Of a stretch of 64,000 bases of DNA, positions 17,821 through 58,429 are shown piece by piece. Source of the stretch: Rhodobacteraceae bacterium QY30 (GTDB taxonomy: Bacteria; Pseudomonadota; Alphaproteobacteria; Rhodobacterales; Rhodobacteraceae). Where the stretch lies: the NCBI GenBank assembly GCA_002356635.1, contig CP023454.1:186001-250000 (forward strand). Reading direction: 5' to 3'. The notes under the pieces were generated by a model. It had not been told where the DNA came from and made no database searches. It saw only the letters and a program-made list of their open reading frames with translations. The position numbers were made by a program, and so were the translations under genes. Numbering within the stretch: position 1 is the stretch's first letter; every line of letters starts with the position of its first letter.

Positions 17821-18639
17821 GTGTTCAGGATCGAACGCCCCCCGACCGCGCTTTCCCGAGGCTTCGGTCTGGCCGAGCGGATCCATCATTCGACCGTTCG
17901 TGTGATAAGGCAGTCACAGGGCAATCCGGTTCTGGGTCTTCTGAAGAATATCCTGCGCACCGTCGTTCTGATCATGGCCTTCCACCTGATGGTCACGCTG
18001 CTGGGCTGGCGGCCCAATGCGATCCGCGGCGATTTCGTTCTTTACCTGATGTCGGGGATCTTTCTCTACATGACGCACACCCGTGCCATCGGTGCGGTCT
18101 TCGGCGCCGAGGGGCCGACCTCGACGATGATGCTGCACGCCCCCATGAACACGGTGATCGCGATCGCGGCGGCGGCGCTTTCGGCGCTGTACCTGCAGTT
18201 CCTGTCGATGGTGGTGGTCCTGTTCGTCTATCACGTCGCCTTCACGCCGATCCGGATCGACCAGCCGATCGGCGCGCTGGGGATGTTCCTGATGTCCTGG
18301 ATCTCGGGCGTGGCGATCGGGATGGTGTTTCTGGCGCTGAAGCCGTGGTTCCCCGCGCTGGCCGCTGGCCTGCAGCAGATCTATTCGCGGGCCAACATGA
18401 TCTTTTCGGGAAAGATGTTCGTGGCGAACGCGCTGTCGTTCACCATGCTGCCGCTGTTCAGCTGGAACCCCCTGTTTCACACCATCGACCAGTCCCGCGG
18501 CTTCGTGTTCCTGAACTACACGCCCCATTACACCGATCCGGTCTATCCGCTGCTGGTCACGCTGCCACTGCTGCTGGTCGGGCTGATGGGGGATTTCTTC
18601 ACGCGTCGGCGCGCCTCGCTCAGCTGGTCGCGGCGCTAG
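17821..18639 (+). CDS. KpsM-like polysaccharide ABC exporter permease
   Basis: Inner-membrane ABC-2 type permease with about six hydrophobic helices, resembling KpsM/Wzm capsule or LPS exporters (LLKNILRTVVLIMAFHLMVT, then WNPLFHTIDQSRGFVFLNYT and FLNYTPHYTDP near the end, all family features). The start is a GTG at 17821 with GGAGA ten bases upstream, giving 272 residues; ATG codons further in would cut off the first cytoplasmic segment. No ATP-binding (KpsT) or accessory (KpsE/D) gene is next to it, so its partner must lie elsewhere. It is convergent with alkB and shares the four bases CTAG (18636-18639), which contain both stop codons. Confidence 0.83.
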   Translation: MFRIERPPTALSRGFGLAERIHHSTVRVIRQSQGNPVLGLLKNILRTVVLIMAFHLMVTLLGWRPNAIRGDFVLYLMSGIFLYMTHTRAIGAVFGAEGPTSTMMLHAPMNTVIAIAAAALSALYLQFLSMVVVLFVYHVAFTPIRIDQPIGALGMFLMSWISGVAIGMVFLALKPWFPALAAGLQQIYSRANMIFSGKMFVANALSFTMLPLFSWNPLFHTIDQSRGFVFLNYTPHYTDPVYPLLVTLPLLLVGLMGDFFTRRRASLSWSRR

Positions 18640-28799: not shown

Positions 28800-30350
28800 A
28801 TGACGGACGACGCAGTTTGTGAACCTCGGCGCAATGCCAGGGCGGGCGGCAGGGCGGCACGAACGGCAGCGCGGGCCGCGCCCCTGGCCGAGAACCTGCG
28901 CCCGGTGCGCGCGGGGATGCCCGGGGGGCAGTACCGGCCGCTGACCGATGCGGGCGTGGCGCGGATCCATGAGGCGGCGTTGCAGGCGCTGGAGCGGATC
29001 GGGCTGGCGAATGCGCCGAAGTCCGGGGTCCAGATCCTGACCGGGGCGGGGGCGATCCTGGGGGATGATGGTCGCATCCGCTTTCCCCGGGCGCTGGTCG
29101 AGGACATGCTGGCCAAGGCCGCGCGCGACATCACGCTGTTTGCCCGCGATCCGAAATTCGATCTGCACCTGACGGGCAGCAATGTCCATTTCGGCACGGC
29201 GGGGGCGGCGGTGCATATCGTCGATCCGGTGACGCTGGACTACCGCGATTCCACCGCGCAGGATCTGTATGACGCCGCGCGGCTGACGCAGAACCTGGAC
29301 AACGTGCATTTCTTCCAGCGCGCCATGGTCTGCCGCGACGTGCTGGACAATTTCGACATGGACGTGAACACGCTTTACGCCTGTTGCGCGGGAACGAAGA
29401 AACATGTCGGAACATCTTTCAGCGATCCCAGCCATGTGAAGGGCTGTTTCGACCTGATCCACATGATCGCGGGCGGGGAAGAGAAATGGCGGGCGCGGCC
29501 GTTCATCTCGAATTCGAACTGTTTCGTCGTTCCGCCGATGAAGTTCGCCGAGGAAAGCTGCATCACCATGGAGGCCTGCGTTCGCGCGGGCATGCCGATC
29601 CTGCTTTTGAGTGCGGGCCAGGCGGGCGCCACGGCGCCGGCGCCGCTGGCGCTGGCCATCGTGCAGGCGGTGGCGGAGTGTCTGGCGGGGGTGGTCTACG
29701 TGAACGCCATCGCGCCGGGGCATCCCGCGATCTTCGGCACCTGGCCCTTTGTGAGCGACCTGCGCACCGGCGCCATGTCGGGCGGGTCGGCGGAACAGGC
29801 GCTGCTGACCGCCGGTTGCGCGCAGATGCACCGGTTCTACGCCCTGCCGGGCGGCGCGGCTTCGGGGATCTCCGACAGCAAGTTGCCCGACATGCAAGCG
29901 GGCTGGGAACAGGCGATTACCAACGTGCTTGCCGGGCTTTCGGGCCTGAACATGTGCTATGAGGCGGTGGGGATGCATGCCTCGCTTCTGGGGTTCTGCA
30001 TGGAAAGCCTTGTCATGGGCGACGACATCCTGGGCCAGGTCATGCGCTGCGTCCGCGGGATCGAGGTCGACGCCGATTCGACCAGCATCGAGGCGATGGA
30101 GGCGGTCTGCTATGGCCCCGGCCATTACCTTGGGTCGGATCAGACCTTGGCGCGGATGCAAACGGAATACGTTTATCCGGTGGTTGGCAACCGGATGAGC
30201 CCGAAGGAATGGAACGAGGCCGGGAAACCGCTGCTTCTGGACCGCGCCATCGCGCGCAAGAACGACATTCTGGACAAGGCAGGCTGTCAGGTCGATCCTG
30301 CGACAGATGCGGCGATCCGGTCGGCGTTCAACATCCACTTCAGGGGGTAG
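28800..30350 (+). CDS. MttB-family (trimethylamine methyltransferase-like) protein
   Basis: A 516-residue TIM-barrel methyltransferase of the MttB superfamily. Recognisable segments include ARDPKFDLHLTGSNVHFGTA, NSNCFVVPPMKFAEES and GGAASGISDSKLPDMQAGWE. The gene has no in-frame amber codon, so it is the non-pyrrolysine type, whose characterised members (MtgB and relatives) demethylate quaternary amines such as glycine betaine. Those enzymes hand the methyl group to a corrinoid protein, but no corrinoid protein or activase is encoded here. The N-terminus (residues 8-30) is Arg/Ala-rich. AAGGAGG precedes the ATG at 28800. Cofactor and substrate are inference. Confidence 0.82.
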   Translation: MTDDAVCEPRRNARAGGRAARTAARAAPLAENLRPVRAGMPGGQYRPLTDAGVARIHEAALQALERIGLANAPKSGVQILTGAGAILGDDGRIRFPRALVEDMLAKAARDITLFARDPKFDLHLTGSNVHFGTAGAAVHIVDPVTLDYRDSTAQDLYDAARLTQNLDNVHFFQRAMVCRDVLDNFDMDVNTLYACCAGTKKHVGTSFSDPSHVKGCFDLIHMIAGGEEKWRARPFISNSNCFVVPPMKFAEESCITMEACVRAGMPILLLSAGQAGATAPAPLALAIVQAVAECLAGVVYVNAIAPGHPAIFGTWPFVSDLRTGAMSGGSAEQALLTAGCAQMHRFYALPGGAASGISDSKLPDMQAGWEQAITNVLAGLSGLNMCYEAVGMHASLLGFCMESLVMGDDILGQVMRCVRGIEVDADSTSIEAMEAVCYGPGHYLGSDQTLARMQTEYVYPVVGNRMSPKEWNEAGKPLLLDRAIARKNDILDKAGCQVDPATDAAIRSAFNIHFRG

Positions 30351-55483: not shown

Positions 55484-56556
55484 AGCAGATGCCCGGACTT
55501 CGCGGCCTTGGTGGCCAGATAGGCGCTGTTGTGGCGGCTTTGGCCGACCTTCAAGGGCACCCTTTCGGTCACTTCGATCCCGCAACTTTCCAGCATCCGC
55601 ACCTTGGCCGGGTTGTTGGTCAGCAGCCGCACCTGCGAAAACCCCAGCCGCCCCAACAGGCGCGCGCCGATGCGAAAATCGCGCTCGTCATCCTCGAACC
55701 CAAGGCGGTGGTTGGCCTCGACCGTATCGAAGCCCTGATCCTGAAGCGAATAGGCCCGCATCTTGTTGGCAAGACCGATGCCCCGGCCTTCCTGGTTCAG
55801 ATAAAGCAGCACGCCCGCGCCTTCGTCGTTCATCCGGCTGAGCGCGGCATGAAGCTGCGGGCCGCAGTCGCACTTCAGGCTGCCCAGCACATCTCCGGTG
55901 AAACAGGCGGAATGCAACCGCGCCAGAACCGGCCGATTGCGCGGCGGCTGGCCCACCTCGATGGCGTAATGCTCCTCGCCGCCGTCGTCGGGGCGGAAGA
56001 TGTGCAGCCGTCCCGCCTCGGCCAGGGCCATCGGAACGCGCGCATTGGCCACCGGCCACAGCAGCGCCGCGCCCGCCAGAAGCGGCTGCAACTCCTCCAG
56101 CGTCAGCGCCGTCAGATCGGCGGGTGCCGCAGCGGACAGGGGCACCAGAACGGCGGCCGGCAGCAGATGGGCGCTTTTGGCCAATGCCACGGCCGCGCGG
56201 TGCAGGTCGGCCGGACCATCGCGTTCGCTTTGGAACGGGCCTTTCATCGGCATGGTCAGGTCGTCTGCCGGGTCGGCCACGGCATGGATCCAGCCCAGCG
56301 GGGCATCTTGCGGCACGACCAGGCGGGCCACGTCCCCGTCATAGGCGCGGGCCTTCAGCGTTTCGGCCCGATGCACGGTCACGACCAGTGTCAGCCTTCC
56401 CACTGCGCGCAACGCCGCAAGACGATCCGCGCCCAGGGTTTCCGCCGCCACCGCCAGCGCCGAGCCCGAGGGCGTGCGCAACACCACCGGAACCCCCATG
56501 CGCAGGTCGGCGCGGGCGCGGTTCAGCCGTTCGGTGGGGGTGGGGCCAAGTGTCAT
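55480..56556 (-). CDS. ribA: GTP cyclohydrolase II with N-terminal degenerate domain
   Basis: First step of riboflavin synthesis. 358 residues from ATG 56556, with GAAGGA upstream. The C-terminal half holds the zinc-binding CxxxxxxxxxCxC cluster (LHSACFTGDVLGSLKCDCG) and the catalytic QEGRGIGL and TNNPAKV segments. The N-terminal 160 residues resemble the degenerate RibB-like domain found in many alphaproteobacterial RibA proteins but lack the acidic DHBP-synthase active-site motif. In the same transcript as the L,D-transpeptidase and DgoK genes. Confidence 0.9.
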   Translation of the reverse strand: MTLGPTPTERLNRARADLRMGVPVVLRTPSGSALAVAAETLGADRLAALRAVGRLTLVVTVHRAETLKARAYDGDVARLVVPQDAPLGWIHAVADPADDLTMPMKGPFQSERDGPADLHRAAVALAKSAHLLPAAVLVPLSAAAPADLTALTLEELQPLLAGAALLWPVANARVPMALAEAGRLHIFRPDDGGEEHYAIEVGQPPRNRPVLARLHSACFTGDVLGSLKCDCGPQLHAALSRMNDEGAGVLLYLNQEGRGIGLANKMRAYSLQDQGFDTVEANHRLGFEDDERDFRIGARLLGRLGFSQVRLLTNNPAKVRMLESCGIEVTERVPLKVGQSRHNSAYLATKAAKSGHLL

Positions 56557-56711
56557 TCTGCTGTCCTTCGTCGCACCTTCAGTTAAAGGCTTCGACAAGG
56601 AATTGAAACATTTCCTGGCCCTGCGACACGACCGCGTGAGGGGTTTGTCGCAAATCTTGCCGCCCCCGTGACGCGGGATCATCTGTCAGGCGACCGGAAC
56701 GGAGGACCACG

Positions 56712-57398
56712 ATGGCCAACCTGAAGAAGATCCTGCTGGTGGACGATGACACCGACCTGCGCGAGGCGCTGGCCGAACAGCTGGTCGCCACGGACGACTT
56801 CGACGTGTTCGAGGCGGGAACGGGCCAGGAGGCCGGCGAAAAGGTAAAAGGCGCCATCTTTGACCTGCTGATACTGGATGTCGGGCTGCCCGACACCGAC
56901 GGGCGCGAGTTGTGCCGCAAGCTGCGCAAGAACGGCGTGAAATGCCCGATCCTGATGCTGACCGGCCAGGACAGCGACTCCGATACCATCCTGGGTCTGG
57001 ATGCCGGGGCGAACGACTATGTGACGAAGCCCTTCAAGTTCCCCGTCCTGCTGGCGCGCATCCGCGCCCAGCTGCGGACGCATGAACAGTCCGAGGACGC
57101 GATCTTCCAGCTTGGGCCCTACACTTTCAAACCGGCGATGAAGATGCTGATCGACGCCAAGGACCGGAAGATCCGGCTGACCGAGAAGGAAACCAATATC
57201 CTCAAGTTCCTTTACCGGGCGTCCGAAGGCGTTGTCCCCCGCGAAGTGCTCTTGCATGAAGTCTGGGGCTACAACGCCGGTGTAACCACTCATACGCTGG
57301 AAACGCACATCTACCGTTTGCGCCAGAAAATCGAACCCGATCCGTCGAATGCCCGCCTTCTTGTGACCGAATCCGGGGGCTACAAGCTGGTGGCATAG
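56712..57398 (+). CDS. OmpR-family response regulator
   Basis: A 228-residue two-component regulator. Receiver domain 1-120 with acidic pocket D11/D12 and phospho-acceptor D56 (LLILDVGLP), plus K near 108 in YVTKPFKF. A winged-helix OmpR DNA-binding domain follows (ILKFLYRASEGVVPREVLLHEVW then HTLETHIYRLRQKI). No cognate kinase is encoded in the window, so it is an orphan. Divergent from ribA. Function not known. Confidence 0.92.
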   Translation: MANLKKILLVDDDTDLREALAEQLVATDDFDVFEAGTGQEAGEKVKGAIFDLLILDVGLPDTDGRELCRKLRKNGVKCPILMLTGQDSDSDTILGLDAGANDYVTKPFKFPVLLARIRAQLRTHEQSEDAIFQLGPYTFKPAMKMLIDAKDRKIRLTEKETNILKFLYRASEGVVPREVLLHEVWGYNAGVTTHTLETHIYRLRQKIEPDPSNARLLVTESGGYKLVA

Positions 57399-57464
57399 AT
57401 CCGCCGCGTTCTGCTTCCCCTTGCCGCCCCGGGGTCATGAGGCGGCACCCTCCCTGTCAACTGG

Positions 57465-57490
57465 CCCGGACCTTCGCGTCCGGGTTTTTC
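57465..57490 (+). terminator. Intrinsic terminator of the response-regulator gene
   Basis: CCCGGAC / GTCCGGG 7-bp stem (57465-57471 and 57478-57484), 6-base loop, followed by TTTTTC. Classic Rho-independent terminator. It belongs to a ~50-base block whose near-copy is at 57647-57709. Confidence 0.9.
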
Positions 57491-57561
57491 TTGTGCCGAA
57501 CGTTGCGCGCGCCGGAAAAATTCACGTCCTGCGGGAACTGATTCCGTGATAGGATGCTTGT

Positions 57562-57707
57562 CATGGCAGGCGGCGTACCTCGGTTCAGGTCTTTCCCCTT
57601 GTCGGGTTCCTGAATGCGCCTGCCACAGGCCCTGCCGTATCAGGGGTTGGATGCGGACTGTCCCTCCCTGTCTCTGACTGGCCCGGGCCTTTTGCGCCCG
57701 GGTTTTT
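57562..57707 (+). ncRNA. Candidate structured small RNA
   Basis: Between the two terminator blocks, GGCAGGCG (57565-57572) pairs with CGCCTGCC (57617-57624) and, inside, GTTCAGG (57583-57589) pairs with CCTGAAT (57609-57615), making a long imperfect hairpin. A TAGGAT at 57550-57555 is a candidate -10 box, placing the start near 57562; no good -35 is seen. It ends at an intrinsic terminator (57682-57707). There is no long open frame that matches it. It could also be 3' untranslated sequence or a 6S-like RNA; I could not identify a family. Confidence 0.5.
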
Positions 57708-57709
57708 CT
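57682..57709 (+). terminator. Intrinsic terminator of the candidate small RNA
   Basis: CCCGGGC / GCCCGGG (57682-57688 and 57696-57702) with loop CTTTTGC and TTTTT after. Near-copy of 57465-57490; the shared block begins with CCCTCCCTGTC and contains CTGGCCCGG. Confidence 0.85.
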
Positions 57710-57716
57710 TGGCGCG

Positions 57717-58271
57717 TCACTTCACCGGTTCGGACTGCGCCACCGGGAACTTGGCTTCCGCCAGGAACGGATAGGCGAGGCTTACCATCTGTTGCTGGGC
57801 CGCGCCTTCGGTGCGGATGAAATACCACGTGTCACCTTCGCGCAGCGCCAGCATCGACTGACGGTTCCGGGTCTTCGCATCGGCCTGCGCGACGGTGAAT
57901 TCCGTCGGGATCACGGCCCAGGTCACGACCGTTCCATCCGGAAGCTTCGAATCGGTGACGTCGCTGTCCTTGGTCTGCGCGGCAAGATCGCTGAAGCGCG
58001 AACCTCCGATCATCGCCTTGGTCTGCTGCGCCAGGGTGGTTTCCAGTGTCGCCGCGTCGGTGCCCGACTGGGTGGCGAAAAGCTGGATGATCCGCGGCGG
58101 GATCGCCTTGACGATGGCCGAGGCGTCGCCGGATTCGATCGCAGCCAGATAGGACTTTACCGCCGTATTCAGAGCCTTTGCTTCGGGCGCGGTCAGATCG
58201 CGGGCTTGGGTCGGCGCCGCCAACGCAAGGAAAAAGACGGCGGCTAGGGCGGAAAGGTCAAGGCGGCGCAT
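57717..58271 (-). CDS. Hypothetical secreted protein
   Basis: 184-residue protein with a Sec signal peptide (about 1-23, MRRLDLSALAAVFFLALAAP). The mature part (about 160 residues) has one predicted helical segment (KALNTAVKSYLAAIESGDAS) and a compact alpha/beta C-terminus (TWAVIPTEF, GDTWYFIRT). I do not recognise a family. Located between the terminator block and the xth gene. The start at 58271 is chosen because the signal peptide begins there; an ATG at 58292 is in frame. Confidence 0.75.
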   Translation of the reverse strand: MRRLDLSALAAVFFLALAAPTQARDLTAPEAKALNTAVKSYLAAIESGDASAIVKAIPPRIIQLFATQSGTDAATLETTLAQQTKAMIGGSRFSDLAAQTKDSDVTDSKLPDGTVVTWAVIPTEFTVAQADAKTRNRQSMLALREGDTWYFIRTEGAAQQQMVSLAYPFLAEAKFPVAQSEPVK

Positions 58272-58429
58272 GGCGGGCGATTCCTGTTGCATGACGGCGT
58301 TTCACCGCGCGATGTGGCATGTTGCTGCCCGACCCTCAAGCAGGCGTGGCGTCCGGATCGGCGGCGCATTGCCGCCGCCTTCACGCGCCGCTAAGGTCAG
58401 CCGCTGTTGCCGCCAGACCGGAGTCCGAG

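Follow-up and report, generated by a model that had tools for sequence, protein, structure and literature searches.

Positions 57399-57716 of the window (the whole 64,000-nucleotide stretch that was analysed) lie between a gene for an OmpR-family response regulator (56712-57398, + strand) and a convergent gene (57717-58292, - strand), and they contain two similar blocks, referred to here as block 1 and block 2. The features of the locus are the following.

56712-57398, + strand: OmpR-family response regulator (PF00072 and PF00486), with SorX in its 3' UTR; 196 of 228 positions identical to the L092 regulator
57413-57491, + strand: block 1, SorX by family match; RF02784 46.2 bits over 57415-57491, own model 58.8 bits
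57448-57458, + strand: start of the SorX core in block 1, CCCTCCCTGTC; the next bases, UUGGAC in relatives, are altered here
57463-57486, + strand: terminator stem-loop of block 1 (terminator scan)
57550-57555, + strand: TAGGAT, -10-like, without a -35 partner (sequence and sigma-70 scan)
57563 (start), + strand: 16-codon open reading frame (sequence)
57564-57625, + strand: extra 5' domain of block 2 with outer stem (57564-57572/57617-57625) and inner stem (57583-57589/57609-57615) (folding); outside the genus only short stretches matched
57624-57711, + strand: block 2, a second SorX-type module; RF02784 38.1 bits over 57628-57709, own model 36.1 bits over 57624-57709
57635-57656, + strand: SorX-type 5' stem of block 2, CCGTATC (57635-57641), loop AGGGGTTG, GATGCGG (57650-57656)
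57662-57672, + strand: core of block 2, CCCTCCCTGTC (sequence)
57680-57704, + strand: terminator stem-loop of block 2 (terminator scan)
57717-58292, - strand: convergent gene of unassigned family, ending 5 bases from block 2

Neither Pfam nor NCBIfam gave a match to the convergent gene at E 0.001. Beyond its stop codon no T-rich terminator was seen by eye on its strand before block 2, so transcripts of this gene might extend into block 2 in antisense orientation.

Block 1 and the SorX family

The original prediction of two look-alike blocks about 215 bases apart holds: CCCTCCCTGTC is found at 57448-57458 and 57662-57672, 214 bases apart, CTGGCCCGG at 57461-57469 and again at 57678-57686, and TTTTTCTTG at 57485-57493 and again at 57703-57711. 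A repeat search found one 46-nt pair, 218 bases apart, at 72% ungapped. Each block also has the stem-loop that was claimed for it, with terminator-like stems at 57463-57486 and 57680-57704; the scan of 56500-58000 gave four such sites, where shuffles averaged 1.2. The resemblance between the blocks goes beyond chance, since both match one covariance model, the SorX model of Rfam (E 2.9e-10 for block 1, 7e-8 for block 2), and likewise a SorX model of our own, built from 41 rows including block 1 and leaving out block 2 (E 2.1e-16 and 5.8e-9, respectively). What had been described as a near-duplicated terminator with its upstream sequence is a duplication of larger extent, which includes a SorX 5' stem.

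At Rfam's gathering cut-offs nothing was named in 57399-57716; the match of block 1 to RF02784, obtained in a permissive scan, fell just short of the cut-off of 46.6 bits. The corresponding copy of the congener L121 scored 61.9 bits. SorX matches at E<=0.001 were present in 141 of 149 genomes of the family, above the cut-off in 116 of the 149, and the only match among 14 control genomes was a below-cut-off one in Caulobacter vibrioides. SorX, formerly RSs2461 (PMC5036791), is described as a 3'-UTR-derived sRNA of Rhodobacter sphaeroides (PMC6238624, PMC8625941, PMC9438474, PMC7821165), where RNase E processes a 116-nt precursor into the 75-nt RNA; the sources cited describe its binding to Hfq for R. 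sphaeroides only (PMC6238624, PMC9438474, PMC5036791 for both points). Block 1 shares with it the place behind an OmpR-type regulator, the 5' stem with a GGGG loop, the CCUCCCUGU core and the terminator.

Eighty loci were gathered around the nearest relatives of the regulator, and 39 of these, together with the window and L121, made up the alignment of 41 SorX sequences. Every one of the seven pairs of the SorX 5' stem has sequences in which both sides are changed, thus the covariation that had been suggested as a check is strong for this stem, and for block 2's own 5' domain it could be followed in two sequences only. The innermost pair of the stem is non-standard in block 1 of the window (model alignment). 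With our own model, 62 of the 80 loci have SorX (E<=6e-10) no more than about 300 nt downstream of the orthologous regulator, a count that includes the 39 rows from which the model was built. The other 18 loci had no such match behind the regulator; two of them, L015 and L018, have too little downstream sequence (50 and 132 nt).

Block 1 lies in the 3' UTR of an RSP_0847-type OmpR regulator. Its core keeps CCUCCCUGU, and the UUGGAC of CCUCCCUGUUGGAC is altered to UC-AAC. Block 1 reads CUGUCAAC at the place of CUGUUGGAC in most relatives. One of the reference loci, L092, was taken as R. sphaeroides by inference, because its SorX begins at 2598225, in agreement with the SorX end given as 2,598,224 in PMC6238624. 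This locus differs from the window in carrying a single SorX in its 3 kb. Judged by family match and position, block 1 is SorX, in a slightly divergent form of a known kind of sRNA. The original prediction saw in it a terminator behind the regulator; the position is right, and the element appears to be more than a terminator.

As for other known RNAs, the suggested comparison with Rhodobacter sRNAs led to the SorX model, which matches both blocks. The comparison with 6S RNA had no such outcome: Rfam gave no 6S match in the window at its cut-offs, and none in 57399-57716 at E<=5. Matches to ncS16, suhB, sX11 and other weak ones (E 0.11 and worse) were taken as terminator likeness. A literature search by core sequence gave, among the matches listed, no paper about this RNA. 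The tandem CcsR1-4 sRNAs of R. sphaeroides, which carry a CU-rich motif, differ in their host gene, ccaF1.

A pseudoknot might form in SorX between the 5' flank, CCC(C/G), and the loop of the hairpin, (G/C)GGG. At least four Watson-Crick pairs between flank and loop (CCCC/GGGG, CCCG/CGGG) are possible in 38 of the 41 sequences; when the loops were swapped among the sequences, with relatedness uncontrolled, the mean was 27.1 and the maximum of 500 was 33.

Block 2 as a probable tandem copy

The score of block 2 (38.1 bits, E 7e-8) is below the cut-off of 46.6 bits, but the block contains the whole SorX module: the flank CCCU, an unbroken 7-bp stem CCGUAUC/GAUGCGG with the loop AGGGGUUG, the core CCUCCCUGU and the terminator. 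Pairing is possible between the flank CCCT (57630-57633) and AGGG in the loop. The stem arose in 3.0% of 20,000 shuffles, stem and four flank-loop pairs together in 0.4%; when the SorX stem was not enforced, another fold was 2.5 kcal/mol better. What sets block 2 apart from SorX is a further hairpin domain at its 5' end and a spacer ahead of the core. From these sequence features we class block 2, a putative RNA, as a tandem paralogue of SorX that carries an added head.

The nested stems that had been predicted in the added head are there. The outer one has 8 bp (GGCAGGCG/CGCCTGCC, 57565-57572/57617-57624), the inner one seven pairs, one of them G-U (GTTCAGG/CCTGAAT, 57583-57589/57609-57615). 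The fold of 57562-57711 had a z-score of -1.93, with 7 of 200 shuffles as good, and over the longer pieces the z-scores were modest, between -0.75 and -1.93. In the full-length ensemble of the window the pair probabilities were 0.54-1.0 for the inner and 0.34-0.54 for the outer stem. The corresponding stretch of L121 folds on its own into the same arrangement, and its inner stem contains two pairs in which both bases differ from the window (G-U to U-A and U-A to G-C). When the full length of the congener's RNA was folded, the inner stem had probabilities of 0.98-0.99 and the outer one 0. Beyond the window's genome the domain was not found as a whole in any of 394 genomes, only in stretches of about 20-43 nt. 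A 156-nt block 2 query matched in 56 of the 394 genomes at E<=0.01, otherwise through its core-terminator part.

The second copy of L121 reached only 18.1 bits; it lacks the SorX stem, and its core is interrupted, with CTCGCCCTG where the window has CTCCCTG, all of which is as decay would predict. The spacer between the blocks is not alignable between the window and the congener, much of the part from core to terminator is, and GATGCGGACTG of block 2 is identical in the two genomes. So block 2 predates the split of the window genome and the congener, and has been conserved only loosely. Constraint on it looks weak, because the 5' domain is present only in the congener, where the stem is lost and the core interrupted.

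Among the 80 loci, eight (L027, L030, L033, L038, L042, L051, L061 and L070) have a further SorX copy downstream at E<1e-5; L033 has two, and the copy of L038 is about 1.5 kb off. Second SorX-type copies were also found in two of 30 further loci (L098 and L109), and the survey of 149 genomes added two more, G022 and G148. On a tree of the regulator genes (87 rows) the tandem label required eight changes, at least three of them forced by well-supported branches, thus the tandem arrangement arose or was lost several times. In the same tree the window and the congener stand apart from the main group. Block 2 looks new to this lineage.

It is in the light of the observed family match of both blocks, the module anatomy and the synteny that we regard it as probable (about 0.65) that block 1 is SorX and block 2 a tandem SorX copy yielding a second RNA with the same core. 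Against this reading stands the fact that both blocks are below Rfam's gathering cut-off. The 3' end of the regulator mRNA would be cut out as a short RNA, block 1, whose unpaired CU-rich core CCUCCCUGU would pair with purine-rich mRNA stretches, for example ribosome-binding sites. The whole module would have been copied in tandem, and the lineage would have added the 5' hairpin domain and the spacer between stem and core. Processing and pairing are inferred, as is the expression of block 2, which would most likely come about through transcription running past the first terminator, or else from a weak promoter that block 2 itself has near 57550. The resulting second RNA, sharing the core, may act on overlapping targets or take up the same partners (Hfq, antisense RNA). 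The TAGGAT that had been pointed out as a -10-like box is present at 57550-57555, but it has neither a -35 element nor a clear counterpart in the congener alignment, and the sigma-70 scan found no promoter-like site. The best-known target of SorX, potA, received no support from duplex energies. For block 1, no candidate start in six potA-like loci paired better than the 9% level of 75 background starts, and for block 2 the best of 17 candidates was an internal start at 2.7%. Of the originally proposed duplicated small RNA or 3'-derived RNA linked to the regulator, the duplicated sRNA stands, with one copy derived from the 3' UTR; block 2 is, rather, a derived copy. What looked like an anonymous terminator pair would then be a named stress sRNA with a young paralogue, a natural sRNA duplication behind one regulator.

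Block 2 could also be only a back-up terminator, left over from a SorX duplication and now shielding the regulator from the convergent gene. What is best preserved between the two congeners includes the terminator and the bases preceding it; L121 has a degraded core and stem, and the convergent gene is only 5 bases away. We nevertheless consider this reading rather doubtful, for in the window SorX stem and core remain intact, and GATGCGGACTG, which lies upstream of anything a terminator would need, is identical in both genomes. The TAGGAT is followed after 7 bases by the ATG at 57563 and its 16-codon frame, a spacing that would suit a leaderless message, and block 2 might accordingly be part of a leader or of a tiny coding gene; the congener has no ATG at the corresponding place and a -35 is missing, which makes this very improbable.

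A different question is whether gene conversion keeps the two cores similar, with block 2 serving mainly as a sequence reservoir, or whether their likeness is recent and meaningless. The cores within the window agree in 44 of 56 columns, more than the block 1 orthologues do (38 of 57), and CTGTC is found in both window copies where both congener copies have CTGTT. However, the comparison extends over about 55 columns and two genomes only, the congener's own pair is less alike (36 of 59), and the block 2 orthologues agree in 42 of 61 columns. These sequence patterns are suggestive only of gene conversion between the core copies, and we think it unlikely that they account for block 2.

Sibling RNAs, FNR-type boxes and a candidate antisense element

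RF02784 matched four places in this genome at E<1e-3: block 1, block 2 and two further loci, L113 and L115. L113 (G000 C1:1449745-1449834, - strand) is a SorY-like RNA behind a LysR-type gene and has the SorX core in common; against the SorY model, RF02651, it scored 63.0 bits (cut-off 111), and its relatives have a promoter-like motif, CTTGATC...CCTAAAT, upstream. SorY resembles the blocks in core and terminator type, and differs in that its counterpart in this genome is behind the LysR-type gene, not behind this regulator. In R. sphaeroides SorY is described as having its own promoter (PMC6238624). L115 (G000 C1:1909866-1909925, + strand) is an RNA with the SorX core near an ialB-like gene, with a weak match to RF02784 (33.8 bits).

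In seven of the 15 second copies examined (L027, L030, the third copy of L033, L038, L042, L051 and L070) TTGATNNNNATCAA, which we take to be the FNR-type box consensus, occurs with 0-2 mismatches, centred 44-47 nt before CCCTG. Shuffles matched box and spacing in 0-0.7% for five of the seven, in 5% for L038 and in 15% for L042. The box of G148 is 77 nt off, and no such box was found in the window, L121, the second copy of L033, L061, L098, L109 and G022. A pattern search of the 394 genomes, allowing gaps of 24-40, returned ten genomes (loci L160-L169) and none with the reversed control; in all ten the gap was 36-39. Taken together with the seven second copies, the box centres lie 44-48 nt before CCCTG. 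The end of the regulator gene is just upstream in nine of the ten (eight by script, L165 by eye), and the box overlaps its stop codon in five. These five keep the SorX 5' stem, thus part of the fixed gap may stem from the size of the stem. Binding of FnrL upstream of RSs2461 (that is, SorX) in R. sphaeroides was found by ChIP-seq, with no effect measured in that source (PMC4263372), so the FnrL link is already in print as binding; the fixed spacing is an observation of this analysis. The end of the 116-nt SorX precursor was considered as an FNR-dependent start and rejected, since it is 27.5 nt, not about 41.5 nt, from the centre of a two-mismatch box.

Close behind the L115 copy lies an element complementary to the SorX core (G000 C1:1910036-1910053, + strand; L228, also L115 and L191), a conserved putative sRNA, AAGTCGGCCAGTCCGACAGGGAG, with a sigma-70-like promoter and a terminator. 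We regard it as a candidate antisense RNA or sponge against the shared core of SorX, SorY and block 2. The exact 18-mer GGCCAGTCCGACAGGGAG is present in 28 of 149 genomes, three of which were dropped by eye as the other strand of sRNA genes. All 25 remaining loci have TTGAC-N1-N17-TANNNT upstream, with a 17-nt spacer; a T run follows the element in 24, a core-like motif lies within 300 nt upstream of it in 19, and a crude ialB-like signature was seen in 12. Under a stricter script, 4 of 15 loci had both the core and its complement. The duplex energies of the element with block 1 and block 2 were -33.5 and -36.0 kcal/mol, the minima of 300 shuffles each being -26.8 and -30.5. For five loci of the element Rfam named nothing, apart from a ctRNA match below the cut-off in L224, on the side of the terminator, and a thin literature search found nothing on the element. 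In a mutant of stsR, SorX and SorY are reported to rise (PMC8307010).

A wider and tentative reading, which we hold to be possible but would not bet on, is that SorX-type RNAs (SorX, tandem copies such as block 2, SorY and the copy near ialB) form an expandable family of siblings with one core. Several lineages of Rhodobacterales would have copies behind an FNR-type box centred 44-48 nt before CCCTG, a distance at which transcription from a class II promoter would begin at the core itself. The family would be restrained by a conserved small antisense RNA with its own sigma-70-like promoter, made up of AAGUCGGCCAGUCCGACAGGGAG and a terminator; block 2 would be an additional member with a different head that draws on this antisense RNA as well. 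If this is true, one core serves several sRNAs that are controlled differently (through the regulator mRNA, oxygen or heat-shock sigma factors) and faces one opposing antisense RNA, and crosstalk and buffering among the siblings become directly testable.

Elsewhere in the window, 18386-18537 (- strand) matched the Ruegeria Cis2 sRNA family with 78.6 bits, and 29868-29967 (+ strand) matched the pyrrolysine insertion sequence family PYLIS_3 (mttB) with 48.4 bits, above the cut-off.
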